Shown: in pieces, positions 1,762 to 38,432 of the stretch
How positions within the stretch are numbered: the stretch's first letter is position 1
Layout: every line of letters begins with the position of its first letter
DNA from: Planctomycetes bacterium GWF2_41_51
GTDB lineage: Bacteria; Planctomycetota; Phycisphaerae; Sedimentisphaerales; UBA12454
Direction: 5' to 3'
Length of the DNA: 64,000 nt
NCBI GenBank assembly: GCA_001825665.1
Contig: MHXZ01000070.1
Span: 1-64,000 of the forward strand
Made by a program: the position numbers and the translations under genes
The notes under the pieces: generated by a model
Seen by the model: the letters and a program-made list of their open reading frames with translations, nothing else
What the model was told of the DNA's origin: nothing
Database searches by the model: none

Positions 1762-1829
1762 TCCCCACTCCTTAAATCCGAAAAGTATCGGACATAAGAA
1801 GCCTTCATAGCAAATCAAATTCTTCTAAA

Positions 1830-10783: not shown

Positions 10784-10825
10784 AAAAACCTTCCTTTTAA
10801 ATGAGAATTTCAAAATACTTTTATA

Positions 10826-11914
10826 TTAATAGTGTGCTAATTCACGAGATAATTCCAAATATAGTTTGATTGCCTCCGGCGGTATATTCCATGGAATATG
10901 ATTGCCGATACACATCATGTAACCAGCACTCATTCGTGCCGTTTCGACCATAGATTCGACCATTTGACGAATTTGCGCAGGCTCATTTTCTGTCAGTATT
11001 CGGTTGTCGCCTTCCCCGGCAAGACAAATATTGGTATGCCTGCGGGCAATTGCTTTAAAGTCTGTATATGGTTCGGTCATAATCATCCGTGCGCCGCACG
11101 CTATAATATCATCCGCATAACGATCAAGGCATCCGTCTGAAACGAAAATGACTTTCTTGCCGGCAGTTTTAAGCATTGACCAGAATTCTTCGTAATACGG
11201 AAAAATGTATTTGTGCATCCACGACGGCGAACATACCGGGCCGCGAGTATTTACAATGTCATCGTGGCAACTGATGAAATTTACCGGCAGCCTGGCCATC
11301 GCTCGAAAGACACGGCGATTCAACTCGGCAAATTCCTCCATTATGCGGCCAAAGCGATTATCAAGGCAACATTCTAAAAACAACTCCCACCCAAACGTCA
11401 GCAGTGGCCACATGAACATTGTATTATAAAATCCGGCAACGCTAAATGAACCCTGTGGCGCAGTATCACCCCACTCTTTCGGATACTCGGCTCTAAATCG
11501 CTGATATAAAATCTCTTCGCTAGAAAAATCGTAATTCATAATCACGCCGGGCATGTCCGTAAAATCGGCCTTATCCAAAGGACTGAATGCAAAAACATCA
11601 TCGGCACTTTTGAAATGTGCCTCACCGTGCTCCCAACTCCAGCTCTGGCCATCGCCCCATCGAACTGTATGCGAATCCTGATTACCGTCTTTCACCTCAC
11701 CGGGCCTGGCAATAGGGTCATCAGTTTGTGGAACCGGTAAATCAAGTTCGGGATATAACCCTTTAAGCTTGATCCTGCATTGCCGAGGATGCTCAAAATA
11801 GTCTATTCCAGCAAGGTAGCTCTCCGCATCGGGACAGGACCAGTGTTCAAAATGGGGCATCTTCTCAGGATATCTACCCATAACTGCAAGGTAACGATTA
11901 TCAGGTTCCGACAT
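10826..11914 (-). CDS. URO-D family protein (methyltransferase-like), variant metal motif
   Basis: This 362-aa protein has the architecture of the uroporphyrinogen decarboxylase/MtaA-like TIM-barrel family. Recognisable segments are SPSWMHKYIFPYYEEFW (about residues 229-245), VIFVSDGC (255-262) and the C-terminal CIGNHIPWNIPPEAIKLYLEL. In zinc-dependent methyl-corrinoid methyltransferases of this family the position of VSDGC holds a His-X-Cys motif. Here the histidine is Val/Ser and a cysteine follows the glycine, so the metal site differs. No signal peptide. It is one of six such proteins in this window. It is not a haem-synthesis enzyme by context; the substrate is unknown. Confidence 0.75.
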   Translation of the reverse strand: MSEPDNRYLAVMGRYPEKMPHFEHWSCPDAESYLAGIDYFEHPRQCRIKLKGLYPELDLPVPQTDDPIARPGEVKDGNQDSHTVRWGDGQSWSWEHGEAHFKSADDVFAFSPLDKADFTDMPGVIMNYDFSSEEILYQRFRAEYPKEWGDTAPQGSFSVAGFYNTMFMWPLLTFGWELFLECCLDNRFGRIMEEFAELNRRVFRAMARLPVNFISCHDDIVNTRGPVCSPSWMHKYIFPYYEEFWSMLKTAGKKVIFVSDGCLDRYADDIIACGARMIMTEPYTDFKAIARRHTNICLAGEGDNRILTENEPAQIRQMVESMVETARMSAGYMMCIGNHIPWNIPPEAIKLYLELSRELAHY

Positions 11915-11974
11915 TCTTTAACCTTTCCACGCATAGTTTGATATACCAATCGTGAACATATACTAATATTTCAG

Positions 11975-13426
11975 TCATAGATTTTCTTCCTGCTTTTTCT
12001 TCCTTAACTGGTCTTGAATTTCAAGGATTTTGGCTTTATTAAGTGGATAAATAAACGACAGCACCAGTGCGACCCCAAGAAATATCACAGGAACAAAAGC
12101 TGTCATAAATCTCAGCCTGAAAATCGTCAGGTCGGATTGAGTCGGCAAACTGGCATTATAACATGTCCAACTCACCACATAACCACTGGCAATCATAATC
12201 AAGGATACCCCGGCCTTCATCAGAAAGCTGAATATCGCACCAAACATCCCCTCCCGTCTTCTGCCCGTGGACAGTTCATCAAGGTCACAAATATCAGCAA
12301 CCAAAGCAGGCAGTATGACCCAGCCACAAGTCATGCCCGGGCTCACCGTCAGGCCAAAGAACAGCTGAAGATAAGCATTTCGGGGCGTATAATAGAGCCA
12401 ACTGCTAACCATACCCACAATTACCAAAAACATCCCTGCCTGTAAAACCCGTCTTTTGCCGAATATGCGAGAAAATAAATTCACAATAGGCACAGAAAGA
12501 AAACCCGCTATACAAGATGTGTATAAACCATACATCATAAATTTCGAAGTTACGCTCTCATTGCCTGGAAGAACATAAGCCATATTAATGTAATATTGAA
12601 GCGGTACCGCAACGTACAACCCGGTAATTGCAAAAAGTATGATTCCGCACACAATCATGAAAGGCTTGTTTTTCAAGGTATATTTTATCGCGTCTAAAAA
12701 TGAAATCTTCTGCTGCTGGTGGACTCGTTCTTTGCAAAATATAGACGGTAAAATACCAAAACAAATCATTGCAATGCCAAATATGATGCCTACAACACGT
12801 ACTCCCTCGATCTTATTGTCGCCGAACCAAAAACACATTCTAAAGGCCAAAGGCAAAAAAAGCCCGCCGCCAAAATTCATAAAAAATGTTTTGAAAGACA
12901 TAACACTCGTACGGCCATCGTAGTCCGATGTCAATTCGAATCCCAAGCCGTTATAGGCCACAAAGAATACGGTGTAACTTGTGAAATATAAGATTGATAT
13001 CAAAGTAAAATAACAAAAAATCATTGTTTTGCTTAAGCCAGCCGGCGGCATCCATAGAAGCATACAAAGCAACCCGGTAATAATGGCCCCGATAAAAATA
13101 AACGGACGGCGTCGCCCCCATCTTGTTCGTGCATTATCGGATATATTTCCCATGAGTGGGTCGCTGATTGCATCCCAGAATCGCGGTAAACCAACTGCCA
13201 AGCCAATTAAACGAGCGTCAATCCCAAGCCCGGCCTGATAAATCGGATATGCCAAACTAAATATAATATTTGACATAAGCACTTCGCCGCCGCCACCCAT
13301 TCCATAAGCAACTTTTTCTAAAAAAGACAATTTCTTTGTTGCCTTTACTGGTTTTGAGATGCACGTTTTTTCCACAAATTGGCTTTCTTCATTTAAATGG
13401 TTACTTCCCATTTCACATCCGCACAT
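11975..13426 (-). CDS. MelB-type (GPH family) sugar:cation symporter
   Basis: This 483-aa polytopic membrane protein belongs to the glycoside-pentoside-hexuronide:cation symporter family. It has about 12 hydrophobic segments and the family signature RFWDAISDPLMG with acidic residues D85 and D89, followed by RTRWGRRRPF (about 101-109). It would import a glycoside or oligosaccharide with sodium or protons. The N-terminal 30 residues precede the conserved part, so the true start could be the ATG at 13411, where GGATG is suitably spaced. It lies between two URO-D family genes. Confidence 0.85.
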   Translation of the reverse strand: MCGCEMGSNHLNEESQFVEKTCISKPVKATKKLSFLEKVAYGMGGGGEVLMSNIIFSLAYPIYQAGLGIDARLIGLAVGLPRFWDAISDPLMGNISDNARTRWGRRRPFIFIGAIITGLLCMLLWMPPAGLSKTMIFCYFTLISILYFTSYTVFFVAYNGLGFELTSDYDGRTSVMSFKTFFMNFGGGLFLPLAFRMCFWFGDNKIEGVRVVGIIFGIAMICFGILPSIFCKERVHQQQKISFLDAIKYTLKNKPFMIVCGIILFAITGLYVAVPLQYYINMAYVLPGNESVTSKFMMYGLYTSCIAGFLSVPIVNLFSRIFGKRRVLQAGMFLVIVGMVSSWLYYTPRNAYLQLFFGLTVSPGMTCGWVILPALVADICDLDELSTGRRREGMFGAIFSFLMKAGVSLIMIASGYVVSWTCYNASLPTQSDLTIFRLRFMTAFVPVIFLGVALVLSFIYPLNKAKILEIQDQLRKKKQEENL

Positions 13427-13486
13427 AAAATCGTTGTATATTCGTCAACGCGAATTGACGGCGTTTTGGCTTATCTGGATAAAAGA

Positions 13487-14443
13487 TTACAACGAACGTG
13501 GTAATTCCTCACAACAAGAGCGGTATTCGTCCAACATAATCCGGTAGCTTTCCGGCGGCATTCCGGCAAATATACAATTGGACGTTGAAAAGATATACTT
13601 CTTTCCAACACCGCCGTGTTTCATACAGTATCGAACCGCTCCTCTTATTTCTTCTTCATTCGTATCCTGCAATAAATTACAGGCGACATTGCCCATTAGC
13701 AGCCATTTAGGGAATTGCCCTCTGACCATCTTAATGTCCATGTGAGCCTGCGGATCCACAGACTGGTATCCGTCAATTCCTGTCGAGTAGAGTTGCTCCA
13801 ACAAAAGCCGTAAGTCACCATCCGAATGAAGAATGACCGGTGTTTTTAAGTCATGAATCACACTCACAATTTCCGTCATATACGGTGTTATAAACTCCCG
13901 GAAATGCGAGGGTGAAATAAACGGACCACTGTTATAACCAAAATCTGTATTTTGTATGATAAAATCCACTCCTGCATCCACCTGTCGCTTTGATAGTTCT
14001 TTGGCCGCTTGGCATTTGGCTTTTGCTTTGGCATGCATTTCAGCAGGACGTTCAAAAAGCATTACTGTAAAATCCATAATTTCACTGCCTACAGGCATCC
14101 AGAATACCCCGTCGCTACTAAAAGAGAATACCAAGGCTCTATCTCCTATCGCCTCTTTTAGACAAGTGATTGAAAGAATTGAATCAATACCTTCTTCGTA
14201 ACATAACGCCGGAACAGCCGACCATCCAAGTTCGTCAACCAGATGGGAACATAATTCAATATGAAATTGCTGCATTGCCTTCTGTCGATCTGCGGAGCTG
14301 GCATATAAACCTTTCTTTACCGTCTGCCAGTCCATACCGAACACTTCCTTTTCAAGCTGAAAAACAAGTTCAAAATGAGGAGGGATATCGGGGATTTGTC
14401 CCTCTAATAATATCTGCAATCGCTGTTTATTATTCAACGCCAA
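13487..14443 (-). CDS. URO-D family protein, HSDGD variant
   Basis: This 318-aa cytoplasmic protein of the uroporphyrinogen decarboxylase/MtaA-like superfamily contains ISPSHFREFITPYMTEIV, PVILHSDGD (H206, D208, D210), LLMGNVACNLLQD and a C-terminal GMPPESYRIMLDEY helix. The position where zinc methyltransferases carry His-X-Cys reads His-Ser-Asp, so the metal-site cysteine is replaced by aspartate. The gene follows a URO-D paralogue and precedes the MelB-type symporter. The reaction is unknown; methyl transfer is only one of the options for the family. Confidence 0.75.
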   Translation of the reverse strand: MALNNKQRLQILLEGQIPDIPPHFELVFQLEKEVFGMDWQTVKKGLYASSADRQKAMQQFHIELCSHLVDELGWSAVPALCYEEGIDSILSITCLKEAIGDRALVFSFSSDGVFWMPVGSEIMDFTVMLFERPAEMHAKAKAKCQAAKELSKRQVDAGVDFIIQNTDFGYNSGPFISPSHFREFITPYMTEIVSVIHDLKTPVILHSDGDLRLLLEQLYSTGIDGYQSVDPQAHMDIKMVRGQFPKWLLMGNVACNLLQDTNEEEIRGAVRYCMKHGGVGKKYIFSTSNCIFAGMPPESYRIMLDEYRSCCEELPRSL

Positions 14444-14524
14444 TTTCCTTATTCATATTTATCCCATTTATGTCTCATACAGTTCACACAAAGTAAAAAA
14501 GTTTATACCGGCGAATATAGAAAA

Positions 14525-15628
14525 TCAGTAGGTGCATTTTCTTGCTTCATCGGCGAAAGCCATGAGCAGTTCAGGTTCTGCATCAAAAAAATGATCCGAG
14601 GGGCTTAAAATAAATGCCCCATTCTGACCAGCTGCCTCAAAGCATCTCCTAACTTCTGCTCGGGTTTGCTCCTGGCCGCAATCTTTGAAAAAATGAAACT
14701 GATCAAATCCACCAATCATACAAATGTCGGAGGGAACACGTTTTCTGGCATTAGCCAAATCAACATCACCACCCATTCCCGGCGGGGTAAAGGTTTCCAT
14801 GGCATCCGGTTTCATGGCTGCGATATTTTCCAGTATCGGCATCATCCCTCCACAGGTATGATAGACAATTCGCTGGCTAATACCATGAGCCAATCGAATC
14901 AATTCCATGTCATAAGGAGCAACGTATTCATCAAAAATCGCTGGAGATATCACAGTGGAAGAGGCATCGCCACCACCTAATTCTAAAATGTCATATTTTG
15001 CACCTTTGAGAGAGGCGATATATTCTTTTTTGCGTTTCTGCAGTATTTTCAAAAACGTGTGCACCCATTGAGGGTCATCGAAGGTCGCCATAATCAGCTT
15101 TTCTATTCCAAACAGGCAGGCCGCGTCCTGCCACGTCCCCGGCTGGCCGAACAGGTCAAAACTGCATATACTGCCGCGAATCAGCTTATCGGCATTGTTA
15201 TCTGCGATGCTGTTGACCGACTCCACATCGCAAACAGGAGATGGAACATATTGGCCAATCAGATCAATATCTTTCTTATCTTTCACAAGGCGTTCCGTCA
15301 CCCAGCAGGTATATTCATTGTACTGGATAACCGTGGCGAGATTACCTGCCGGCGTAACAATGGTATAGCGAATAGTTCGATAATCATGGCCGGGGATTTC
15401 CTGTTCTTCGATCCGCCAGTTGTCGGACGGTTCATTTTTGACCGGCCCCGCCCAGATAATCGCATCAAGCCCGAAATGGTCGAAGAATTCGATATCCGAG
15501 GCCCCATTCATATACTCATTAAGAAAATACGACATCAGATGATGCGTCGTTACGGGCAACCTGTCCGGCACACCGCCGTCAATCGCGGTCAGCATACGCT
15601 CTCTGGAAGTTAAAGAAGCCAGAGCCAT
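14525..15628 (-). CDS. URO-D family protein with partial HxC zinc motif
   Basis: This 367-aa member of the uroporphyrinogen decarboxylase/MtaA-like superfamily has the N-terminal TSRERMLTAIDGGVPDRLPV segment, a central ISPAIFDEYVAPYDMEL, RIVYHTCGG with H257 and C259, and a C-terminal ILSPSDHFFDAEPELLMAF. The His-X-Cys half of the zinc site is present. The distal cysteine found in MtaA/MtbA is replaced by a serine-aspartate (SPSDHFF) segment, which is shared in spirit with ASDYLFYDIP of the paralogue at 19645. It starts 6 bp after the large GH38-like gene, suggesting direct co-translation. Confidence 0.78.
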   Translation of the reverse strand: MALASLTSRERMLTAIDGGVPDRLPVTTHHLMSYFLNEYMNGASDIEFFDHFGLDAIIWAGPVKNEPSDNWRIEEQEIPGHDYRTIRYTIVTPAGNLATVIQYNEYTCWVTERLVKDKKDIDLIGQYVPSPVCDVESVNSIADNNADKLIRGSICSFDLFGQPGTWQDAACLFGIEKLIMATFDDPQWVHTFLKILQKRKKEYIASLKGAKYDILELGGGDASSTVISPAIFDEYVAPYDMELIRLAHGISQRIVYHTCGGMMPILENIAAMKPDAMETFTPPGMGGDVDLANARKRVPSDICMIGGFDQFHFFKDCGQEQTRAEVRRCFEAAGQNGAFILSPSDHFFDAEPELLMAFADEARKCTY

Positions 15629-15634
15629 AATTTA

Positions 15635-18508
15635 TTAGTCCTGTTTTTTCGGTTTTATTTCAATCGTTACAATTTTTTGAGGCCCTGCGTTTACAGGAAC
15701 TTCATATTCCGTTGTCAACTCAATTTCTTTCATTCGCTCTTCATCGAGGTTGGTTTCCCATGCGTTAGACGGCGGCACCGCAAATTTAAGAGCACCTTGC
15801 TGGTTTTCTTTGGTTGGATTATAAATACGAATAATATATGTATCATGGTCTTCTGTTTTCTTAATAGCAGAAAAACGCAATGCGCTGTTGGTAATCTCAA
15901 ACAGAGACATCTGATTGTCTGAGAGTACGCCGTTATGTTGGCGGGTCTGGATGATTCGCGTTGGAACATTGAATAATTCTGCACATAATGGTATATTTGC
16001 ATCCTGCCAATTGCCGGGGTGAGGATAAATTGCATATCGCGCGGTATGCCGTCCTAAAGACTGCCCGCCCTTTTGTGAAGGAAAGACCGAACCAACACGG
16101 GTTTCCGTACATATCCAATTCTGCACGGAACGTACGAGAGAAAATGCCACAGTACGTTCCGGCGTATCAAGCACTTCATATTCCGTAAAACCGTCATTAA
16201 GGAAAGCAATGCCATCTTCACCGTCACTAACGTCAACAAAATTATTCTGCGGCAGCGTAGCCATATCCGGCCATACACTATCTTCCGCCGGCCCCTGCGA
16301 ACGAATGGGGCGGCTATCAACCGCAAAATGTCCTCCCACATCAGCCGCAACAGCAGTGTCGAGTCCTGTTGGAAGTATAACACGAAGACAATGGTCTTCA
16401 TGACGGTTTTCAAACTGAATATCAACATGGGCGTATCGCTGGCCGGACTTTAATGTAACCGCTGCCTGTATTGTCATTTCGGTTAATTCACCGCTTCGAC
16501 ACTGTTGTTCCCTGATGCCTGAACGTGGTAATAACATTGTTATTTCACTTACCAGGGTGGACTGGAGCGGGCCTGAATTTTCACTCCAGATGCGAGCAGA
16601 ACAGCCCAGTGAAGTGTGCACCTGGTCGTACATCGGCCGCTTATTGATCCAATAATCCCCTATTTCGCCTCGGTCTTCATAATAGTTAAGATTGCAATAT
16701 GTCTTTTCGTGCTGCTTGTCAGTCAGGTCAAATGTGCCATTACAGTTCATTTTAATTCTGATAAATTCGTTTTCAATTGTATCCGGAGATTTAAGCAATG
16801 TGCTTGTGCGTGCCTGTGAATTACTCCACTCTCCAGATTTTGTGCGACCATCTTTGTTTAAGCCCACGCGAAATACTTTATAACCTGCCGGAGGAAGCTG
16901 ACCCGTGTCAAAAAACACACGGTGGCTTTGACAATTAAAAGGAAATGCCCGCGTGTGCAGTTGGGCAACAGGATAAGTTTTCGTTTCTCGTCCCAGCCAC
17001 TGAGTCGGCACCACATTACCATCTACATCAAATAACACAAGTCCTTCCGGCTCGTACGGCCAGCCCGGATTGCGAGGAGAATTATCCGGCAAATTAATCC
17101 ATGCTTCCACCACTTCCCGGCGGGCATACGGCATGGAATTAAAAACGACAATCAGTATATCATCGGGACTGAATCTACTCAGGTCAATTTTAGATATGAT
17201 ATCCTGCATCGCCCTGTTACCCAGCGACTGCGATAATTCAACGACCTGCTCAAGGCGATTGATAACATCCCGAACCGTTTTGTCCTGGGTAACGCCATTG
17301 ATTGAGTCATGCGGATGAGATTTTAATAAATAAAGCCATGCCTGTTCAATAAATTGAGACGGAAAAGAGAATCCGCTCATCGAGGCCAATACACAAAGCG
17401 GCTCGGCAAAACGGATTAACATATTCTGAGCGTGCTTGTTAAGCCGTTTAACCGTTATGGACGTTGTCAGGGCATTACCTGTAAGAGGGCCGGCGGGACC
17501 GTCACGCAGTTCTCCTTTTACAATTTCGAGTTTCAAACGATCAATTTTTTGCCTCATTAATTCCACATACCTGGTCATCGTGGTATGTATCCATTCACGA
17601 TCAGAGGCCTTATCAACTTCATTAAGTCGCTTCACCATTTCCGGGAACAACGGCTGAGACGCAGAATAATCACAGCCGTTCATCATCAGCCGGTCATTTT
17701 CCAGCAAGCTGTCCCGCATCGTTTCCCAGCAGTCCTCAATAACCTCAGAGGTAATATATTCAGGATGCCAGTGAGTCGGAACATCGAGCTGAAAATGATC
17801 CTGCTCCTTCTGTTCCGGGTCTGCCCGATGATAAGCAACTCCACCTTTTGACCAGTTGTATTCCCAACCGGTTCCTTCATGAAGAATATTAAACAATGCG
17901 CTTAGATGTATCTTAAAATAAAAATTCTGACGTCCTAATTCACCGAAACGCGTCGTAAGTAATTCACTGCCGTCCGGCGCCTGCCATAAAAACTCGCAAT
18001 GCGGTGCACGATGTTTACCAACTCGTTTGCCTATCATAGCTACATCAATACCGAACTCCGCGTAAATTTGTGGAAGCTGGGCAATCTGTCCCCATCCGAA
18101 CGGGGTATAACCCACGTTGAAAACAGCACCCAGTTTCTTCGCTGCTCTATTTCCATACAATAAATTACGGATTAATGCCTCTCCATCCACAGGATATTCA
18201 TCCGGCAAAATAAGCCATGGGCCGATTTCTAATTTCCCCGAACGAACTAAAGATTTAACACGGTCAGCCATTTCAGGTTTTACTTCCAGGTAATCCAACA
18301 CGGGGATTACCTGGCCATCTAAAAGAAAACCGGGATACACATCAGATTCGAGCAAATCAATCAACTCGTCCATAAAGTCCACGAGCATCAGCCGCGTTTC
18401 CCAAATCGGATAACGCCATTCACGGTCCCAATGAGCATGTGAGACAATATGTCCAATACGTTGTTTTTGCTTTCCCTCGGTTTTTTTCTGATATTTATCT
18501 TTATCCAT
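15635..18508 (-). CDS. Large GH38-family protein lacking the nucleophile aspartate
   Basis: This 957-aa cytoplasmic protein is clearly of the MngB-type GH38 fold. Evidence is SHAHWDREWR with zinc ligands H26 and D28, FLLDGQVIPVLDYLEVKPE, GPWLILPDEYPVDGEALIRN and a later LKSHPHDSINGV histidine segment, plus the C-terminal beta domains. The nucleophile block is GYTPFGWGQIAQLPQIY. Aligned with the family pattern GYLPDSFG-x3-Q-(L/M)-P, the aspartate that is both nucleophile and zinc ligand is replaced by F137. Canonical retaining mannosidase chemistry is therefore doubtful. It is flanked on both sides by URO-D family genes (6-bp and 14-bp gaps), and a similar but not identical paralogue is at 27044. 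Confidence 0.85.
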   Translation of the reverse strand: MDKDKYQKKTEGKQKQRIGHIVSHAHWDREWRYPIWETRLMLVDFMDELIDLLESDVYPGFLLDGQVIPVLDYLEVKPEMADRVKSLVRSGKLEIGPWLILPDEYPVDGEALIRNLLYGNRAAKKLGAVFNVGYTPFGWGQIAQLPQIYAEFGIDVAMIGKRVGKHRAPHCEFLWQAPDGSELLTTRFGELGRQNFYFKIHLSALFNILHEGTGWEYNWSKGGVAYHRADPEQKEQDHFQLDVPTHWHPEYITSEVIEDCWETMRDSLLENDRLMMNGCDYSASQPLFPEMVKRLNEVDKASDREWIHTTMTRYVELMRQKIDRLKLEIVKGELRDGPAGPLTGNALTTSITVKRLNKHAQNMLIRFAEPLCVLASMSGFSFPSQFIEQAWLYLLKSHPHDSINGVTQDKTVRDVINRLEQVVELSQSLGNRAMQDIISKIDLSRFSPDDILIVVFNSMPYARREVVEAWINLPDNSPRNPGWPYEPEGLVLFDVDGNVVPTQWLGRETKTYPVAQLHTRAFPFNCQSHRVFFDTGQLPPAGYKVFRVGLNKDGRTKSGEWSNSQARTSTLLKSPDTIENEFIRIKMNCNGTFDLTDKQHEKTYCNLNYYEDRGEIGDYWINKRPMYDQVHTSLGCSARIWSENSGPLQSTLVSEITMLLPRSGIREQQCRSGELTEMTIQAAVTLKSGQRYAHVDIQFENRHEDHCLRVILPTGLDTAVAADVGGHFAVDSRPIRSQGPAEDSVWPDMATLPQNNFVDVSDGEDGIAFLNDGFTEYEVLDTPERTVAFSLVRSVQNWICTETRVGSVFPSQKGGQSLGRHTARYAIYPHPGNWQDANIPLCAELFNVPTRIIQTRQHNGVLSDNQMSLFEITNSALRFSAIKKTEDHDTYIIRIYNPTKENQQGALKFAVPPSNAWETNLDEERMKEIELTTEYEVPVNAGPQKIVTIEIKPKKQD

Positions 18509-18522
18509 AAATTACCTCTTTA

Positions 18523-19564
18523 TTAGTATTTTACGATTTCATGGGTACATTCAATGAATGCATCCACATTTTCAGGTTTTGCCCCGGCAGAAATAGCTCC
18601 GCCGGTACAAAGCACAAACCTCTGGTTTTGATTAGCATTTTCGAAACAATACCTTGCCGCAGACTTGACATCCTGCGGCGTCCCTTCAATCATTGCCTTA
18701 ATCGGATGTATATTCCCGCCAAGAATAACTTTCGGCAAAGCCTTGCGAAACTCCTTAATATCGATATTCGGTGAAAACCCCATCAATTCATCAATATGAA
18801 GATGATCCAACATGCCAATCCCTGCAGGAATTATATCACCATCCGTATGAAGACTGCAAAGCACCTGGTTTTTATATTTCTTGAAAATATCGCCGGTATA
18901 GAATGACAAATTCATCGAAAAGCTCCGGTGGCAGGTATGCGCAGTAATCTTCGCCTATGTCAATTTTATCAAAAAGATTATTATGCGAACTCATCGATGA
19001 AAATGTTTTTTCGACAAACTCAAGCCAACTGAGCGTTCTTTCATGCAAGAAATCAAATATCTTTTTTACACAGGCAGGATTATCATAAAAATCCGTAAAA
19101 AACTTTTCAGTTCCTCGAAAGATGGAAAACAAGTCCATGGCACCGGTTGAGCCGAAGTAATAATTCACCTGCTTATGTCTCGGCAGGCGTTGATTGAAAA
19201 AGTGAACCCCTTCGAGAAGTCGTTTGACGCCGTTAACTTCTGAAAACGGCTTCTGGCAATAGTATTTATCAAAATTATCCAAACCCGGACCTAATATCCG
19301 ATGAGCCGGCAAGTCAGAGCAATCCGTAGCAAAGGCTTCAATATCAAAATATATATCCAATATGCCGACATCAACAGAGAAATCACGCATATCACAAAAA
19401 CGATCATTTACACTTTTTTGAGCTTCAAACATTGTCTCGAAATCGGCAAAATATCGCGCCGGGCTTACCCCGGTGAAGGAACAAACAAACGTATCGTCAA
19501 GCCAAAGCCTGAAAGGAGCAAAATCCACCTTTTCACCCCGAATCAATTTTCTGTATCTATTCAC
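18523..19564 (-). pseudogene. Frameshifted URO-D family gene
   Basis: Two overlapping frames together give one full-length uroporphyrinogen decarboxylase-like protein of about 345 aa. The first (19564-18872, GTG start) ends ...PPELFDEFVILY and then drifts into nonsense RRYFQEI. The second (open from about 18915 to 18523) continues with YTGDIFKKYKNQVLCSLHTDGDIIP and the C-terminal AISAGAKPENVDAFIE. The shift is at about 18898-18905, where a family member would read FV-x-PYTGDIF. The motif HTDGD matches the HSDGD variant at 13487. Either the gene is inactivated by a small indel or the assembly has an error. Confidence 0.8.
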
Positions 19565-19644
19565 ATTCTCTTTTAAAAAATCTCTGCCAATACTAATCGA
19601 AACCTTCTAATTTTTAGTTTATCATGCAATATCTTAACATACTA

Positions 19645-20760: not shown

Positions 20761-20800
20761 AATATTTGTATCCTCTCTATATCATATGCCATCTTTTTAA

Positions 20801-21985: not shown

Positions 21986-22045
21986 TTACTAATTCCTCTG
22001 CTTACCTGCCTATTTCTATATCATTTCATACCAAACAATAATAAC

Positions 22046-24994
22046 TTATTTAATTTTTAACCCTGTAACTTTTTTGGAATCTACATTATGCCAAAATTCA
22101 TCCTTGATTTCTTTATAGGCCCCTACAATACCTCCGGGCTTCCAATTTTGTGGATAACAAACCCAGACTTCCGAAGCAGGAACAGATTTCATATTCTTGA
22201 ATTTTGGAGCAAACTCTCGTATAACTCGAGTAATCGGCCGATCCGTTCCATCAGGATTAACTATGCCGTAATCACTATTCTCGATTGTTCGAACACCACC
22301 CGGATACCACCAAAAGGCAACACCATTTGCATGACCTTTCAGTAGCATGCTCAGCAAGTCACGATAACAGACAGCTCCCTTTTCTTGAAGTTTCAATGGA
22401 GACTCCATAGTCATTGTATCACAAACAGAATATCCGATCTCCGGCCAGAATACAGGTAATTCAGGTGCAACCATTCTCGCGTAAGCATTTGTAAAAATAC
22501 CCTCGCGAACCTTCTCCCATGGCCCTATACGTCCATAAGCCTCAGGCTCCATAACATCTACCGCATTGACCAATCCTTTGAAATCGTAGGGTACTATGGG
22601 ATTATATACAAATGTTGGATCACCGGAAAACTGCATACGAAAACTGACCAAATGATTGGGGTCTATACCGCGAATATAGTTGCGGGCGATACTGTATCGA
22701 CTATTTAAAATAGTATTCAGAAAAACGGAGTAATCACCCAGCATCTTGTTCCATTTGCCGGATTGATACCATTGCTCATGCGTCGGAGGCATTGCCAATC
22801 CGCTTGCCTTTTCTATTTCCGGCTGGTATCCCCATGCCTTAACAGCCGCCTCCAGAGTAGTGTATTTATTAGTCAGCCATTTATCCCAGTCTCTAATGGT
22901 ATCAGGAAAATCATAATATCCGGCCTGAAATCTATATTCCCACGAAAGATCATATAGAAAAACAGAGCGGTTTATCGCCAACTGATTTTTCTCTATGAGT
23001 TCTTTTACCATAGACACCTGAAAATCAAGTTTGGGCATAACATTTCGAAAAGAAACATCCAAATGCAGATTATGGTTCTCACATCTGCGTAAAAAATCGA
23101 TAAAATTCCAACTATCGATATCACTGTTATAGATAAATACACATACGGTATTCAGGCCTAAATCAACAATATGTGAAAGGTCTCTGTCAATAACATAAGG
23201 GTCATAAGCCTCGGAGGAAAACCAATGCTCAAATGCATGGGAGTCCTCAGGCTCTCTGGCAATTCCCGACGATGGCATGTAATTTACGCCATAGGGATGC
23301 CATAATTTATCAGCAAGGTAAAATTCGCCTTTTTTAGCAGTTATCCATCCCAAATTCTCGTTTGGCTGCCAGATCCAGAAATCATGCTCGAACTGATCGA
23401 CAAGAATTCCTTCTTTCGTAATTAGCGATGCTATAACATGATAAGAACTATTTTTCTGGAACGAGGCAGCTTTTCCAAGTAATTCATCTAATTGTTGAGA
23501 AGGTTCTTTAGTAAAGTCTTCAAAAATTTTCTTTTTATTTATCACATCGGTTACCGTCAACTTTACCTGTAAGTCCTTCTGCAATTTATTAATGATTGCG
23601 CTGGCACCTACACGAATGTCCTGTTCAGGGAAGTATGTAAACTGAGTACTTCCTCCTTCCCAAAGGAAATTTCCGTCCAGCATTCTTTTTGTAAGTTTAA
23701 CGATAAATCGAACCGCGTCTTTTTGAAGATAAAATGCCGATTTATCAATGGCAAATCCGGCCCACATATGTTCGAGTTTACGATCAAATCGAAGAGCTGC
23801 AATCGTTCCGCGATATTGACCTGTTTGTGAAGTTGCTTCTAAAAGAGGAATCCAGCGATGAGTATGCTCCTTTCCCCAACCGATGGACCTAACTCGCGGG
23901 TGAAATGCCTGTATCTTGTCAGGCACATAAAACTGTTTTTCACCTGTTAGTAATTTTTGATTGGGTGAAACGGTGATTTTTCTCACATCTGAACAAGGAT
24001 AAGTAAGATAACCAGGATAAAGCAGTTCTCTGTGTTTAAAATCAATATTCCAAGCTTCCGGTTCACATTGCATACGATTACAAAGACTAATATTACTAAT
24101 CCAGAATTCATGATTTGCAAAATCGGAAAAGTCGGGGCGTCGGATTTCTCCGCAGGCAAACCGCTTAATCTTAGAAGTATCGAGAACTCTGCCTCCCTCA
24201 TTGGGTATGGGTTCATGGAAACGGTTAGGGCTTCTTAACGTAAAATCTTTTACAGGGATGACGTATTGTCCCCATTCTTTGCTCAAAGGTATTTCATCTG
24301 CCCAGATTGAACCGTCCATTTCCTCAAATACTACGGACATCCGTAAAGTTTGCTTCCTTCCTTTAGCTTCAAAAATGATATAATCTTGTTTTTGTAATTT
24401 CACATCTGATAGAATTGGCGAAAAAAGCAGCTCATAGTCATCCACAGAGCTAATGGACATATGAAGACATAAACCCTTTTGTGGGTCCTTTGCAATTTCC
24501 GCAGTTATTTTATGCTGCCTAGTGGAAGTCCTGCGAATCCAATACTGCAGACTCATTTTGAGGTAATCACGCAGTAAATTTCCGTCCGAAGTTTCTGCGT
24601 ACTTAGCAAGATAGTCTTGTTTAGTCAACCACTTGCCATCGTACATGGTCATAGGTTTTCTAAAAAGAGTTCCTCCGAGAGAGAGTAACCTCCCTCCTTT
24701 TTGTAAATATTCATCGATGGCCGGGGCTGATTCGACAGGCAGTATCCCGCAGTCTGTCAGAATTAGCAGAGAATCATCCTGTATTTTACCAAGAACCTGA
24801 CGTTTTAAATTCGCCGGACAGAGTTCATGTGTACTCAAACCGTCCTCGCGACAGGCTTTAGCGATTACCTTTCCAACTGAAGCGTCGGCGTCGGGTAAAT
24901 CATTGACTAAAACCCACACATCGGATTTCGACAATGGACAAACAACTGCTAAAATAAATGCTATAAACGCTAAGTAAGTATTTTTAAAATTCAT
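22046..24994 (-). CDS. Large secreted clan GH-A (beta-galactosidase-like) protein
   Basis: This 982-aa protein has a signal peptide (about residues 1-24). The N-terminal part (about 25-110, ILTDCGILPVESAPAIDEYL...GGRLLSLGG) looks like the Rossmann/glutamine-amidotransferase-like domain used in GH42-type proteins. A beta-sandwich middle region follows, and a C-terminal TIM barrel begins near WHPYGVNYMPSSG. Candidate catalytic acids are E686 in DLSWEYRFQ and E852 in VFWPEIGYSV, in the order expected for a retaining clan GH-A enzyme. It starts 11 bp after the sodium:solute symporter gene, suggesting that hydrolysis and uptake are coupled. The exact GH family is uncertain. Confidence 0.7.
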   Translation of the reverse strand: MNFKNTYLAFIAFILAVVCPLSKSDVWVLVNDLPDADASVGKVIAKACREDGLSTHELCPANLKRQVLGKIQDDSLLILTDCGILPVESAPAIDEYLQKGGRLLSLGGTLFRKPMTMYDGKWLTKQDYLAKYAETSDGNLLRDYLKMSLQYWIRRTSTRQHKITAEIAKDPQKGLCLHMSISSVDDYELLFSPILSDVKLQKQDYIIFEAKGRKQTLRMSVVFEEMDGSIWADEIPLSKEWGQYVIPVKDFTLRSPNRFHEPIPNEGGRVLDTSKIKRFACGEIRRPDFSDFANHEFWISNISLCNRMQCEPEAWNIDFKHRELLYPGYLTYPCSDVRKITVSPNQKLLTGEKQFYVPDKIQAFHPRVRSIGWGKEHTHRWIPLLEATSQTGQYRGTIAALRFDRKLEHMWAGFAIDKSAFYLQKDAVRFIVKLTKRMLDGNFLWEGGSTQFTYFPEQDIRVGASAIINKLQKDLQVKLTVTDVINKKKIFEDFTKEPSQQLDELLGKAASFQKNSSYHVIASLITKEGILVDQFEHDFWIWQPNENLGWITAKKGEFYLADKLWHPYGVNYMPSSGIAREPEDSHAFEHWFSSEAYDPYVIDRDLSHIVDLGLNTVCVFIYNSDIDSWNFIDFLRRCENHNLHLDVSFRNVMPKLDFQVSMVKELIEKNQLAINRSVFLYDLSWEYRFQAGYYDFPDTIRDWDKWLTNKYTTLEAAVKAWGYQPEIEKASGLAMPPTHEQWYQSGKWNKMLGDYSVFLNTILNSRYSIARNYIRGIDPNHLVSFRMQFSGDPTFVYNPIVPYDFKGLVNAVDVMEPEAYGRIGPWEKVREGIFTNAYARMVAPELPVFWPEIGYSVCDTMTMESPLKLQEKGAVCYRDLLSMLLKGHANGVAFWWYPGGVRTIENSDYGIVNPDGTDRPITRVIREFAPKFKNMKSVPASEVWVCYPQNWKPGGIVGAYKEIKDEFWHNVDSKKVTGLKIK

Positions 24995-25005
24995 CTGAAT
25001 TTCCC

Positions 25006-27000
25006 TTAAATAGTAACGTCAACAGTTTTATCTATTATTTGTTTCTGCTCGTTTTTAATTTCTCCGGGGGGTAATTTTTGATACCAAAAAATATATAGTC
25101 CTATCATAGAAATTACGAAAATCACAAATGTTACAATAAAAGACTTGTATGTTCCTACGAGCAACTGCATCGGCATTAACAGGATTGTAACCTGCCAGAA
25201 AAACGCGAACGGCAGCGAAATTAAATCGTTCCTGTTTTCAGACCCAGCTCTGGCTTGCTCCTGTTCAGATAAGATATATTTGAGTTTTCCCCATAAGCCA
25301 AAGGGCTTTACCTTACGATAATAATTTTTTAACACTTCCGGCTCTGTCGGTTTGGTTAAATACGTCCCGATAATACTCGCGATTAACCCTATCGTTATGG
25401 CAAAAAGGAGTTGGTATTTTTCGGGCCATCCAGGCCAGAAGACACGCTGAACGATTGAAGCTATCATCCCAAAGAAAGTGCCAATCGCAAAACCATACCC
25501 ATTAAAACGCCACCAGTACATACGCAGCGCGAACGGTATGATCATTCCGCCGCCCAGACTCATCGTAATCCAGCCCCAAATATCATTTATGCTCTTACTC
25601 GCATATGCCATCAAAAAGGCTAAAACTACCAACAGTACACCGCAACAATAACTTGCCAGAATCAATTCACGGTTTTGGGCTTTGGGACGTATGTATGCCT
25701 GGTAAATATCACGTGTAAAAAACCCTGTCCCCATATTCAAAAAGGCGTTAATTGTGGACATAGCCGCCGCCAGCAAGCCGACCAATAATAATCCACGAAT
25801 TCCAGTGGGTATGCAAGTAAACAGCACCGAAGGCATAATTCTTTCGGGATTTATACCACCGTTATAATTGACAAGGTACAGTTTCGACGACCAACTGCTC
25901 CCCAGCAACGATTTAAGGTTTTGAATCAACTGCTGTGGATACTCTGTGGTGTGATTTGAAATATTGGAAATCAGTCCGGCCCATTCATTCTCTTTCACGT
26001 TAGGCAGATAGGTTTTAATGATATCTGCGGTGCGAGACAATACGGAATGGTCAGGAAACCAATCCCTGACAAGAAAAAGACCAAGAATAACAAAAGCTAT
26101 CATAAGAACCCACCGAATAGCCATCAGCCAGCCACATAAAAAACTTAATAAACCGCATTCGCGGTCGTTGCGAGCCCCGAAATATCTGGGATCATAACCG
26201 TATCCAAGACCCTGTATAATCGTCTTAGCAAGGTAAAACATGGTAATTGCAAATAAACCGTTATATTGTTCGTAACCTTTCGGCATAATCGTGTGGAAAC
26301 TGGGCAGAGAACTACACCATTGGTTATTACCAGTAACCTGACATGCGAGGGCTGCTATGTCACCGTTACCATGAATCTTGATCACAGCCATGATAGTAAC
26401 AGAAATAACGCCGATTATCACAAGCGACATTTGAAATATGTCTGTTACAACAACACCGTAAAACCCGGCGATTACTGTATATAATGTTGTAACTATCACA
26501 AGAAATAATGTGCAAACCCAGGGCTGAAACGGAAAGAATGTTGACAGAAATAAACCGGCCCCAATAAAAGAATACGCCAAAATACCAAGTACTGAAATTA
26601 AAATAGCAACCGCCGAAAGAATCCGGGCAAGATGCGCACCTCTGTCCTGACCAAACCGGAATTTCATCCATTCGGCAACCGTCATACATCCGCTTCGTCG
26701 ATGCCACTTTCCGAGCCACAGCATACAAAATATAAGAACCAACGCGGCCCCGCCCCTGAACTCTACAAACAATCCCCTCGGGCCAAGCATAAAAAGAAAT
26801 GCGGTGATAATCATCGTACCGGTCATATCCAGCCATGCCGCCATACCTGTAACACCCAATGCCCACCACGGTATCTTACGCCCACCCAAAAAATAGTCAT
26901 CCAGACTGTTGGCAGCGCGATTCTTAAGGTACAACGATATCACAATAAGAATGAGTAGATACCCTATTATTATTGCTATATCAACAGGATGTAAGGACAT
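25006..27000 (-). CDS. Sodium:solute symporter family transporter (large form)
   Basis: This 664-aa polytopic membrane protein of the SSS family begins with a hydrophobic helix (DIAIIIGYLLILIVISLYL) followed by the family-typical DDYFLGGRKIPWWALG and a SMLATxM-like GMAAWLDMTGT. About 14 hydrophobic segments follow, with a longer cytoplasmic C-terminus. The start at ATG 27000 is chosen because GGAG lies six bases upstream; an upstream TTG would put that ribosome site inside the gene. It lies between the GH-A enzyme at 22046 and the large GH38-like protein at 27044. Sugar or sugar-acid import is likely; the substrate is not predictable. Confidence 0.88.
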   Translation of the reverse strand: MSLHPVDIAIIIGYLLILIVISLYLKNRAANSLDDYFLGGRKIPWWALGVTGMAAWLDMTGTMIITAFLFMLGPRGLFVEFRGGAALVLIFCMLWLGKWHRRSGCMTVAEWMKFRFGQDRGAHLARILSAVAILISVLGILAYSFIGAGLFLSTFFPFQPWVCTLFLVIVTTLYTVIAGFYGVVVTDIFQMSLVIIGVISVTIMAVIKIHGNGDIAALACQVTGNNQWCSSLPSFHTIMPKGYEQYNGLFAITMFYLAKTIIQGLGYGYDPRYFGARNDRECGLLSFLCGWLMAIRWVLMIAFVILGLFLVRDWFPDHSVLSRTADIIKTYLPNVKENEWAGLISNISNHTTEYPQQLIQNLKSLLGSSWSSKLYLVNYNGGINPERIMPSVLFTCIPTGIRGLLLVGLLAAAMSTINAFLNMGTGFFTRDIYQAYIRPKAQNRELILASYCCGVLLVVLAFLMAYASKSINDIWGWITMSLGGGMIIPFALRMYWWRFNGYGFAIGTFFGMIASIVQRVFWPGWPEKYQLLFAITIGLIASIIGTYLTKPTEPEVLKNYYRKVKPFGLWGKLKYILSEQEQARAGSENRNDLISLPFAFFWQVTILLMPMQLLVGTYKSFIVTFVIFVISMIGLYIFWYQKLPPGEIKNEQKQIIDKTVDVTI

Positions 27001-27043
27001 ATTTATCTCCAACACAAAGAATTAAAGAAACTAAAACATATAA

Positions 27044-29932
27044 TCATAGTGCGATAAACAAAGTAACGATCTCTTTTTTTCTGAGCCGTAAAAGCCATGT
27101 ATCATTTTTCTGCGCCAACTGCTCTCCTCGACGTTCTTCGTCCAAACTTACCTTCGTAATTGAACTAGGCTCAAAAGCCAGCTTAATGAAACCATTGACA
27201 GGATCGCTATTGCTATTCCAGAGACGTAAAATGTAATTATTCACACCTTCTACTTTATAGAATGCTGAAACATGAATGTGTTCATTCGGCGTTATTGACA
27301 AAAATGAATGGCATGCGGGAAGTGTCCCAGATTTCGGTACTCCCTGAATAACCCGTTGTGGTATTTTAAAATCTTCCGCTTCAGCAATCATATGCCCCTT
27401 TTCCCATCCCCCATCATGTATATAAATTGCATACTCAAAATCAATCGACCCTATACAATGTTGGCCCGATTGCCGTTCATATTCTTCAGATGTCATTAAG
27501 CCACGGTTGGCTCGCATATAGGCTCGATGTGTCCTTAACAGGGTAATAGCTAAGGTGCGGCGAGGATCGTCAATCACTTCATATTCGTTTAACCCCTTGC
27601 TAAGGAAAGTAATCCCATTCTTTCCATCTGTCAAAGAAACAAACTTTTTCATTGGTTGCGTAGGATAATGTCCCTCTGCGTTATCGCCTGTACGATACCA
27701 TTGAATATTTCGGCTAACAATATCAAAAGGTGCATCAACAGACACGTTATCTGTTTTAATATCAGTCGGAAACATAACACGCAGACGATGATCTCGCGCG
27801 GCATTGTCTATTCGAGTCTTTATTTCAAGCTTTTTTGCACCTTTACATAAAGTCAAAAAAGTTCTAACCGGTAACGGCACCATCTTTGTTGAACGATTCC
27901 GACCATCTAAATCTGCTTCAACAGGGATATTAATGGTCAGGTCAATTTGCCATGTTGCTCGCAGTGTATTGTTTTCCAGTAACGTCAAAACAGTCGAGTT
28001 ACAAAGAGTGGTTATAGTATAGTCTCTTAAAGGCTTTTTATCCAGGTGGGCAATTCCGATACTGCCGCTATCACAAAAATAATGCATTCCTTTAATACAC
28101 CTTTGGGTTTGCTTATCGGTAATATCAAATGTTCCATTGGAATTAATAGTTACCCGAATAAATTCATTTTGAAGAACACCGTCCGGTTGCGCTATCAGAT
28201 TCCGATCTGGTCCAATCTGTGGCTCAAAAACATATCTTCGCTTGCACGGGCGTAACGCATATGTTCGATACCCAAATGCAGGAATAGTAACATTTACGAG
28301 AATTCTATAACGTAGCATATTTTTATAAGCTGCTGCATTGGAATCAAGCTTCCGCTCAACCTCTATATCAATGGTTTCTTTTTCCAGTATCTCATATTCT
28401 ATTACATTATTTGCTTCATCAACGATATCAAATTGCTGATATGTCACCTTTTGATCGGGATCAGCTTCATCTCGTATTGGACCAGCTCCTGAACATGGTT
28501 CACAAATCATATCACCACAACTAATATTCGGAACATCAATAACAACCTTTTGGACACCACTTTTACTGATAGGTAAGGTATTAAAAATTGTAATCGTGAT
28601 ATCCCTTTCCTTAAAGACAGACGCAGTATTCAGCTTACTCCATATCTCCTCACATGCTTTTCGGCTGCACTCACGTGCAATACTACATACCGCACGAAAA
28701 CGTGCAGGGTTATCTTTATGGGCATCTTCAATCGCAGCACCGCAAATACTGTCATGAGCATGATTTTTCAAAAGTTCAAGCCATGCTCGATTAAACAAAC
28801 TGTGTTCATACGAACCACCTATTATTGAAGATAAACTCGAAAGAGGCTCAGCAACATTAATCAGCTCAACTTCAGCTTCATCATTCATCAACTTCAAAGG
28901 AATGCGGGAAGAGTGAGTCATACCGTATAAGCCATTAAAACAAACTTCTATCGCAGTATATCGCATCTCACCTTTTAGAATCGATAGTTTTTGCGACTCA
29001 ATTCCTTTTTTAATAGCTTTAACATAATCGTCCAGTGAAGTCTGCTGAACAAAATATTTATCCTGAACTTCATTAATTGCTTTTATTAAATCTGGAAGTT
29101 TCGAATAAGGACAGGCATTGTCTTCCATATCTAGCGCCAGGAGATTATTACCAATAATCTGAGGAGATGCTTGTTTAACAAAATGTTTCAAAGCTTTCAA
29201 AATTTCAGTTTTATCATTGTTAAACTCTATTCCTTCATTCTTTAACTGAAATGCTGTTTCGTACATTTTGTCATCAGCCATATGTACGGGCCATTCCTGT
29301 GACACCCACTTAGTTTGGACATCTCGAGGTATTTTATTAAGTACTAATTCATAATGAATAAAGAAAAACCAATTCGTACGTGTTGCCTCATCGAAACAAC
29401 GAATATGATATATTTGTGTACCATCAGCCCCTTCCCACAGGCAAATAGGCGGCACCTGATGTTTATTAGTCCCACGATAAGTCAAAGCTGTATCAATGCC
29501 AAATCCGGAATAAATCTGCGGCAGCTGAGATATCTGCCCATAAGAAGTAGCAGTATAACCTGTGCTTATAGAACCGCCGAATTTATCTGCATATCGCTTA
29601 CCGATAAGAAGATTTCTTATCAGTGCCTCTGGAGCTACAGTTGACATTTCTGGAAGCGTATACCATTTAACCGTAAATAACCGTCCCTGTTGTATTAACC
29701 TCCGAAGTCGTTCAGCATTCTCAGGACGCACTGCTAAATAGTCCTCAATTACAATGGTCCCCCCATCCAGATGGAAACATAAATAGTTCTTATTCTTTTC
29801 CAGTATCTCCAACAATTCATCCATCAGTTCAGTCAATCGCAACAAAGATTGATCCGCAGTGTAACGCCATTCCCTGTCCCAATGGGTACCCGAAATAACA
29901 TGAATGATTGCCTTCTCTTTTGAGTTACTCAT
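27044..29932 (-). CDS. Second large GH38-family protein lacking the nucleophile aspartate
   Basis: This 962-aa cytoplasmic protein has the MngB-type GH38 architecture. It shows SGTHWDREWR with zinc ligands H17 and D19, FHLDGGTIVIEDYLAVRPE, KWYTLPEMSTVAPEALIRN and LKNHAHDSICGA. The nucleophile block reads GYTATSYGQISQLPQIY. The aspartate expected at the fifth position is T129, and the preceding proline is alanine. It is paralogous to the 957-aa protein at 15635 along its whole length but diverged. It is followed at 25006 by a symporter and preceded at 30012 by the URO-D protein with a complete zinc motif. Confidence 0.85.
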   Translation of the reverse strand: MSNSKEKAIIHVISGTHWDREWRYTADQSLLRLTELMDELLEILEKNKNYLCFHLDGGTIVIEDYLAVRPENAERLRRLIQQGRLFTVKWYTLPEMSTVAPEALIRNLLIGKRYADKFGGSISTGYTATSYGQISQLPQIYSGFGIDTALTYRGTNKHQVPPICLWEGADGTQIYHIRCFDEATRTNWFFFIHYELVLNKIPRDVQTKWVSQEWPVHMADDKMYETAFQLKNEGIEFNNDKTEILKALKHFVKQASPQIIGNNLLALDMEDNACPYSKLPDLIKAINEVQDKYFVQQTSLDDYVKAIKKGIESQKLSILKGEMRYTAIEVCFNGLYGMTHSSRIPLKLMNDEAEVELINVAEPLSSLSSIIGGSYEHSLFNRAWLELLKNHAHDSICGAAIEDAHKDNPARFRAVCSIARECSRKACEEIWSKLNTASVFKERDITITIFNTLPISKSGVQKVVIDVPNISCGDMICEPCSGAGPIRDEADPDQKVTYQQFDIVDEANNVIEYEILEKETIDIEVERKLDSNAAAYKNMLRYRILVNVTIPAFGYRTYALRPCKRRYVFEPQIGPDRNLIAQPDGVLQNEFIRVTINSNGTFDITDKQTQRCIKGMHYFCDSGSIGIAHLDKKPLRDYTITTLCNSTVLTLLENNTLRATWQIDLTINIPVEADLDGRNRSTKMVPLPVRTFLTLCKGAKKLEIKTRIDNAARDHRLRVMFPTDIKTDNVSVDAPFDIVSRNIQWYRTGDNAEGHYPTQPMKKFVSLTDGKNGITFLSKGLNEYEVIDDPRRTLAITLLRTHRAYMRANRGLMTSEEYERQSGQHCIGSIDFEYAIYIHDGGWEKGHMIAEAEDFKIPQRVIQGVPKSGTLPACHSFLSITPNEHIHVSAFYKVEGVNNYILRLWNSNSDPVNGFIKLAFEPSSITKVSLDEERRGEQLAQKNDTWLLRLRKKEIVTLFIAL

Positions 29933-30011
29933 TTAATTCTTTTCCTTTGTTATAAACATCATAAGTTACTTATTTTCGATAATATTTAATAAGATATGCA
30001 AAACTCAGATT

Positions 30012-31034
30012 TTAAAAGTTTTTACAAGCTTTAATCATCTCGTATATATTTTCAGGTGGTGTTCCAGCAGGAATTGCACATCCGGCATTCAAAATAAAAC
30101 GGGGAGAATCAGCATAGATTCTCAAAAGTTCATTGACTTTCTCGCTGACTTTAGAAACGGTTCCCATTGCAAGTATTTTGCTCGGATCTATGTTTCCACA
30201 AAAAACCAGTTTACCCGAACATTTTTGATGAATTAAGTTAATATCAGTTTTAAAGTCCAATTCAATAACATCGGCACCAACTGTTGTCATGTCGTCAATA
30301 ATCTTGTCCGCACAGCCGCAAATATGCAGAAGATAAGGTTTGTTCAGACGATGCGCATGTTTGGCAATTGCTTTTTCATAAGGCAACGCAAATTTGCGAT
30401 ACATCTCAGGAGAGATAATATCTGGACTAGCCATGCTATCACCGTTTGAAAGCATATCCACTCCTGTTTGGCTCATCAACTCAATAAATTGTAATGTTAT
30501 TTGCATTGAAAATACAAGAAGTTGATGTATATATTTTTCATTTTGAGGTTCAGATAACTCTATCAACCAATCTTGAACTCCTCGTATCATACTAGCTAAT
30601 GAAAATGGAGCTTGATCACAATTTCCGCGTATGTAAACAACACCATTGGTCTGTTTGGTAATAATCTTACAAGCTTCAAGCCATATTTGTACTCTTTCGT
30701 TCTTGGAAATATCTGGAACTTCTATTTCTTGAATAGCTTCGAGACAGCTTATACGAGACCCTTTCACACGCGCGGGTTCATATTCGGGAAAATCTACCGG
30801 CACACCAACAGCACCTGCTAAAGTACAGGTATCAACGTCGATAACTACACCGTCATATTTATATTTTTCCACCGCATTCAGATGTACCTTGGCGATTGTT
30901 TCAGGGCATGACCGATACTGAACCATACTAACGTTAGACTCATGAACTGCCATCATAAAATTGTGTAGCATAACCGGCGTTCTATCCGGTATGTCCCCGG
31001 CAAGCACGGCTTGAATACGCTCTTTACTATTCAC
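30012..31034 (-). CDS. MtaA/MtbA-like methyltransferase (URO-D family), full zinc motif
   Basis: This 340-aa protein is the most canonical URO-D family member in the window. It starts MNSKERIQAVLAGDIPDRTP, carries ISPEMYRKFALPYEKAI, and has LLHICG with H237 and C239 and a distal C319 in NAGCAIPAGTPPENI. This His-X-Cys...Cys arrangement is the zinc site of methyl-corrinoid:thiol methyltransferases such as MtaA and MtbA. It would therefore be expected to move a methyl group from a corrinoid protein to a thiol. No corrinoid-binding protein gene is seen in the window. It starts upstream of the large GH38-like gene by 79 bp in the same direction. Confidence 0.82.
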   Translation of the reverse strand: MNSKERIQAVLAGDIPDRTPVMLHNFMMAVHESNVSMVQYRSCPETIAKVHLNAVEKYKYDGVVIDVDTCTLAGAVGVPVDFPEYEPARVKGSRISCLEAIQEIEVPDISKNERVQIWLEACKIITKQTNGVVYIRGNCDQAPFSLASMIRGVQDWLIELSEPQNEKYIHQLLVFSMQITLQFIELMSQTGVDMLSNGDSMASPDIISPEMYRKFALPYEKAIAKHAHRLNKPYLLHICGCADKIIDDMTTVGADVIELDFKTDINLIHQKCSGKLVFCGNIDPSKILAMGTVSKVSEKVNELLRIYADSPRFILNAGCAIPAGTPPENIYEMIKACKNF

Positions 31035-38348: not shown

Positions 38349-38432
38349 AATCACTCCTGACCGTTTACATGAAAAATTAAACATACTCTGTGTCTTTTCT
38401 ATTGATTCTTTTAAATTTCGATTTTTTTGTAT

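Follow-up and report, generated by a model that had tools for sequence, protein, structure and literature searches.

Several methyltransferases belong, together with HemE, to the uroporphyrinogen decarboxylase (URO-D) superfamily, and six further members, named here by their first coordinates (10826, 13487, 14525, 18523, 19645 and 30012), lie in a glycan-degradation locus of Planctomycetes bacterium GWF2_41_51. The stretch analyzed, hereafter the window, comprises 64,000 nt (contig MHXZ01000070.1, positions 1 to 64,000; contig C70 in our scan of the source genome). Many glycans of algae, plants and microbes are capped by methyl ethers. The URO-D paralogues probably strip methyl groups from sugars, because their close relatives from other phyla are encoded in corrinoid methyl-transfer operons together with sugar genes.

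Among the described systems, the coenzyme M methyltransferases MtaA, MtbA and MtsA and the bacterial Mlp proteins (type 1 mlp clusters, PMC10418091) resemble the window proteins in fold. Their His-Cys-Cys site recurs in four proteins of the source genome (30012, C29_33228, C103_53658 and C125_58669), and orthologues of the C29 type adjoin a corrinoid protein in five relatives of the order. However, the glycan locus of 30012 contains neither a corrinoid protein nor RACo, 30012 scores under the cut-off of the MtaA/CmuA methyltransferase model TIGR01463, and the other five window proteins lack the His-Cys-Cys site. OdmB/VdmB, MtvB, MtoB and CdmB are likewise barrel methyltransferases acting on corrinoid proteins (MT1), with the Cys ligands replaced or the zinc absent. 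The corrinoid protein, RACo-type activator and pterin-binding methyltransferase (MT2) of these systems form the same set in one operon described below (L118) and, without RACo, in another (L192). The known members come with a corrinoid gene of their own and act on chloromethane or aryl methyl ethers. In the present case sugar genes are the partners, and the source genome has a single, unlinked corrinoid protein for about 67 URO-D genes. CmuA is a URO-D-corrinoid fusion, an arrangement with counterparts in two loci from other phyla and none among the loci read in the source genome, from which about 70 stretches were taken.

The characterized sugar demethylation that literature searches returned is the aerobic demethylation of 6-O-methyl-galactose in marine bacteria by a cytochrome P450 (PMC10033563). 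There, too, a sugar derived from a glycan loses a methyl ether, but the reaction is oxidative and uses unrelated enzymes, whereas the route proposed here would be anaerobic and would keep the methyl group. Corrinoid-dependent sugar demethylation by URO-D proteins was not reported in the open-access literature searched, a scope outside which subscription papers and most preprints fall.

Corrinoid operons of relatives in other phyla

The 14525 type was conserved at 56 to 79% identity in 80 fetched loci, nearly all from metagenome-assembled genomes (MAGs), representing more than 10 phyla as given with the records. A stand-alone corrinoid protein lay within 8 kb of the 14525-type gene in 9 of the 80; the density of B12-binding_2 domains as a whole, taken from 30 of the 14525-type genomes, would predict 0.6 such loci (Poisson P of about 2e-8). 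L118 contained a complete operon, with sugar ABC permeases, the 14525-type gene, a corrinoid protein, a Pterin_bind MT2 and RACo. In L162, a corrinoid protein, a Met_synt_B12 protein (methionine-synthase activation-like), a homocysteine methyltransferase (S-methyl_trans), PfkB and RbsD were accompanied by a lyxose-isomerase-family protein (Lyx_isomer), GH31 and three URO-D genes.

Other URO-D types showed comparable arrangements. L192 carried a protein 54% identical to C90_4795 of the source genome, together with a corrinoid protein, MT2, MetF, a sugar transporter and GH2; L193 held a corrinoid-linked relative of C5_1802, also from the source genome; and in L201 a URO-D gene was found with a corrinoid protein and a fucose isomerase homologue. 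A single protein of L205 (7428-9380), near sugar ABC genes, consisted of a URO-D domain followed by B12-binding domains, and the fusion in L244 (899-2710) had the reverse order; both genomes belong to the part of the scan that covered Chloroflexota. In a joint URO-D tree (a quick tree, long branches included, with branch support by SH-aLRT), corrinoid-linked proteins nested in no fewer than five of the branches formed by source-genome paralogues (14525, C90_4795, C5_1802, C29 and C20_32096), with support of 99 to 100. By these operons, which pair close relatives with sugar transporters, isomerases and glycosidases, the step of sugar demethylation or related one-carbon (C1) chemistry put forward in the original prediction is supported, short of proof.

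About 20 of the 80 loci had GH38 genes in the vicinity of the 14525 type; GH38, SSF and PfkB surrounded the 14525-type gene in L100, and two Clostridiales loci combined GH38 with 14525-type and 13487-type genes, as in the window. Close relatives of 13487 were found in GH38 loci of Clostridiales and of a Sedimentisphaerales MAG. Across the 50 genomes searched, the 13487 type had no corrinoid neighbor; GH38 and 14525-type neighbors recurred. A 641-aa protein in L241 (6257-8182) joined a 13487-like URO-D domain to an extra, non-corrinoid part and had no corrinoid domain.

The glycan locus and the metal ligands of its paralogues

All six URO-D genes, whose coordinates in the original prediction were right throughout, lie in a minus-strand gene run (2612-39617) with intergenic gaps of 2 to 187 bases. 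The five unsplit genes, and the C-terminal half of a sixth that is split, passed the gathering cut-off of the Pfam profile PF01208, by which membership was defined. The neighbors by Pfam (three GH38, two PfkB, MFS_2 and SSF symporters, GH2, a mannitol-dehydrogenase-like protein and DUF4432) confirmed the setting of glycosidases, kinases and sugar symporters. The exception concerned 18523, which had been taken for a protein: a URO-D gene is there, but it is not intact. Its two open reading frames (ORFs) overlap by 44 bases in different frames, and the gene is therefore frameshifted in this assembly. The features of the locus were as follows.

2612..3739, minus strand: mannitol-1-phosphate dehydrogenase-like protein (Mannitol_dh_C; Pfam E 1.1e-24; NCBIfam below cut-off)
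3742..4812, minus strand: DUF4432 protein (Pfam E 2.4e-93), presumably with a galactose-mutarotase-like fold
4816..5973, minus strand: PfkB-family sugar kinase (Pfam E 6.9e-15)
6967..9453, minus strand: GH38 alpha-mannosidase-family protein (Pfam E 1.8e-53), with homologues near 14525-type genes in other phyla
9581..10813, minus strand: PfkB-family sugar kinase (Pfam E 1.8e-22); L100 has a copy at 81% identity close to its 14525-type gene
10826..11914, minus strand: URO-D paralogue, V-S-D-G-C, distal Asn, without the zinc His (Pfam E 3.5e-13)
11975..13426, minus strand: MFS_2 sugar symporter (Pfam E 3e-70)
13487..14443, minus strand: URO-D paralogue, H-S-D-G-D, distal Asn (Pfam E 1.9e-28)
14525..15628, minus strand: URO-D paralogue with a His-Cys-Asp site, belonging to the conserved HTCGGMM type and proposed to act as a corrinoid-dependent sugar O-demethylase (MT1) (Pfam E 9e-20)
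15635..18508, minus strand: GH38 protein (Pfam E 2e-26)
18523..19564, minus strand: URO-D paralogue, H-T-D-G-D, split by a frameshift into ORFs 18872-19564 and 18523-18915 (Pfam E 7.4e-14 on the C-terminal ORF, 18523-18915)
19645..20760, minus strand: URO-D paralogue, H-I-C-S, distal Asp (Pfam E 1.2e-19)
22046..24994, minus strand: weak GH42-like protein, 982 aa (Pfam E 7.4e-5)
25006..27015, minus strand: SSF sodium:solute symporter (Pfam E 1.8e-33)
27044..29932, minus strand: GH38 protein (Pfam E 5.4e-23)
30012..31034, minus strand: URO-D paralogue, full His-Cys-Cys site, MtaA/Mlp-like, predicted thiol-type methyltransferase (Pfam E 7.4e-65)
34398..38384, minus strand: GH2 protein (Pfam E 5.3e-14)

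A transposase with rve and Mu-transpos_C_2 domains stands at the window edge (199-1818, minus strand), and four further URO-D genes lie beyond the window on the same contig (C70, 71301-83267; L008), on the opposite strand.

The zinc-ligand positions were read by alignment on the MtaA structure 4AY7. H237-I-C239...C319 of 30012 aligned with the Zn ligands, in agreement with the full site ascribed to it. The motifs described for the other paralogues were also found. Thus, 14525 (HTCGG) and 19645 (HICS) keep H-X-C, and their reported loss of the distal Cys can be refined: the Asp of an S-D segment takes its position, giving a His-Cys-Asp site. The same position is Asn in 13487 (HSDGD) and 10826 (VSDGC) and Gly in 18523 (HTDGD).

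The source genome (4.83 Mb, 138 contigs, 95.6% complete) gave 71 URO-D matches, far above chance, corresponding to about 67 genes, with one or more weaker members besides (C119, 7188-8309). His occupied the first ligand position in 57 of the 67 aligned rows, one of which was fragmentary. The second position was mostly Cys (35) or Asp (27), and the distal one His (26), Asp (9), Asn (9) or Cys (4). The genes were dispersed among glycan loci, most of which held one or a few of them alongside SSF symporters, Gfo/Idh oxidoreductases, GH38, sulfatases and regulators; the enrichment of SSF, Gfo/Idh and GH38 around them is to be regarded as modest, because the background was small and unmatched. One SSF symporter was fused to an N-acetylneuraminate-epimerase-like Kelch propeller (L017, 9667-12261).

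According to Kountz and Balskus, URO-D S-methyltransferases have a His-Cys-Cys zinc site, whereas O-methyltransferases swap one or both Cys for carboxylates or lose them (PMC10418091); CdmB, a URO-D MT1, functions without zinc (PMC13222342). In a comparison confined to ligand residues, the structure models carrying no metal, the changes in the paralogues fit this rule. By the same rule, the other five would be of the O type and 30012 would fall on the thiol side, an S-methyl enzyme being more likely for it than a sugar demethylase.

Corrinoid and C1 partners and a proposed route

No B12-binding_2 domain was found within the window, in line with the original prediction, which had noted no corrinoid protein there. 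Elsewhere in the genome, contig C14 encodes one stand-alone corrinoid protein with the cobalt motif DxHxxG, as well as a degenerate B12-domain protein. Two RACo genes (C67 and C68), one of them inside the cluster for CODH/ACS, lie apart from the window. On C78 (17372 region; L057, 1255-3405), a protein of more than 700 residues fuses MTHFR, a C-terminal zinc domain (DUF5981) and a pterin-binding methyltransferase, and can be aligned to MetF as well as to MT2, which are separate proteins in the L192 operon. FTHFS, CODH/ACS and two homocysteine S-methyltransferases are also encoded, so the search beyond the window yielded partners expected of a corrinoid-MT1 system (corrinoid protein, RACo-type activator, pterin-binding MT2 and folate C1 pathway). 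The CODH/ACS cluster (C68, 34001-54000; L006) includes a 1170-aa protein composed of ACS (CdhC, ACS_CODH_B_C) and a CdhD-like domain, in addition to a CdhD subunit, a CooS-like protein, RACo and DUF3786.

We propose, with a probability of roughly 0.6, that the window paralogues, the 14525 type above all, are sugar-specific MT1 enzymes that transfer O-methyl groups to corrinoid and share one hub in this genome. Catalysis, docking, direction and substrate would then be as follows. The MFS and SSF symporters would import a glycan-derived sugar, GH38 and GH2 would cleave it and PfkB would phosphorylate it. The URO-D enzymes would shift the sugar O-methyl group to Co(I) of the corrinoid protein, with many such MT1 spokes sharing the C14 protein, which the RACo of C67 would reactivate. 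The methyl group would pass through the MetF-MT2 fusion to folate and then to methionine or CODH/ACS. What suggests the hub is that a single corrinoid gene is conserved and no others are present. For the substrate, our leading guess is O-methyl-mannose, prompted by GH38 and by the lyxose-isomerase-family gene with PfkB in relatives; methylated oligomannosidic N-glycans have been described in Chlorella and mosses (PMC6344472, PMC8773788).

If this proposal is true, an anaerobic corrinoid route would tie glycan degradation to C1 metabolism and assign a role to a very large share of the URO-D superfamily that now lacks annotation. It raises the question of whether one corrinoid protein is able to serve dozens of methyltransferases. 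More tentatively, and at somewhat less than even odds, there may be a widespread class of corrinoid-dependent sugar O-demethylases, by which anaerobes of many phyla use methylated glycans as a source of both sugar and C1 units, with about 67 methyltransferases and one corrinoid hub in the present case.

Several observations weigh against sugar demethylation through a shared hub. In the source genome, the corrinoid gene is linked to none of the six URO-D genes, and no close relative of 10826, 13487, 18523 or 19645 is directly linked to corrinoid, the connection of these four being suggested by family and co-occurrence. The zinc His is missing in 10826, and the substrate evidence is circumstantial. 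Among 59 relatives of the same order (mostly MAGs), the corrinoid protein was nearly constant, and URO-D matches ranged from 0 to many; it was retained in relatives without URO-D matches, and its number did not scale with theirs. It therefore has another job, probably methionine synthesis, which the C14-type protein would serve in any case, and it could act as a shared hub as well. One relative (G007, an incomplete assembly) has at least 27 URO-D matches and no corrinoid protein except of the regulator type. To our knowledge, no acetogen has a URO-D-to-corrinoid ratio like the 67:1 seen here. The lack of scaling was first taken as evidence against methyl transfer; this view changed because of the corrinoid operons in other phyla, and the lack of scaling stays as a caveat.

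The neighbors of the extra corrinoid proteins in same-order relatives were checked for URO-D partners. These proteins were regulator-like, MttB-associated or near CODH/ACS, and therefore lend no support to methyl transfer. Most genomes of the order lack full-length MetH but have RACo and a corrinoid protein that stands alone, which suggests a split methionine synthase; two relatives (G015 and G050) have full MetH instead.

Other readings of the paralogues

The alternative that survives best, although we consider it unlikely, is that the divergent paralogues retain the URO-D barrel with changed chemistry, as cobalamin-free isomerases or lyases or decarboxylases of sugars or sugar acids, and that only the His-Cys-Cys members are methyltransferases. 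Identities to 30012 of mostly 12 to 27% favor it, as do the variable ligands, including the absent His of 10826, a URO-D number that varies across the order independently of the one corrinoid gene, and a GH/Gfo-Idh/SSF context that would suit any sugar step. However, several divergent branches have members in corrinoid operons or fusions, among them branches with His-Cys-Asp and distal-His sites.

It is less probable still that the proteins are corrinoid methyltransferases whose donor is not a sugar ether, acting instead on methyl glycosides, methanol, methoxy-aromatics or methyl-thio compounds freed with the glycan. Known URO-D MT1 enzymes do use aryl methyl ethers, chloromethane and thiols (PMC8630106, PMC13222342, PMC10418091), and 30012-like relatives stand in mlp-like clusters with a corrinoid protein and RACo (L204 and L207). 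Against this, sugar importers, isomerases, kinases and glycosidases recur beside the relatives, and the source genome has about one URO-D gene per glycan locus.

The paralogues had been set apart from haem synthesis, and scores and trees agreed with that view. The best TIGR01464 (HemE) score of any window protein tested was 101.5 bits, for 30012, against a cut-off of 302.95; with TIGR01463 (cut-off 235.4 bits), 30012 reached 159.9 and the others 67 or less, so none passed. By score and tree, none of the about 67 URO-D genes of the source genome is HemE. AlphaFold2 models of 14525 (pLDDT 94) and 13487 (pLDDT 85.6) had MtaA as their best match in the PDB by E-value, with HemE structures close behind, and fold alone therefore cannot tell methyltransferase from decarboxylase. 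The window proteins share fold and Pfam family with HemE-type decarboxylases making haem, but such an identity is virtually untenable, given active-site residues that differ, scores far under the HemE cut-off, separation of both HemE references from all window proteins at 99 to 100 SH-aLRT, and a best match in this genome of 219 bits against single matches of 350 to 496 bits in genomes with a likely true HemE.

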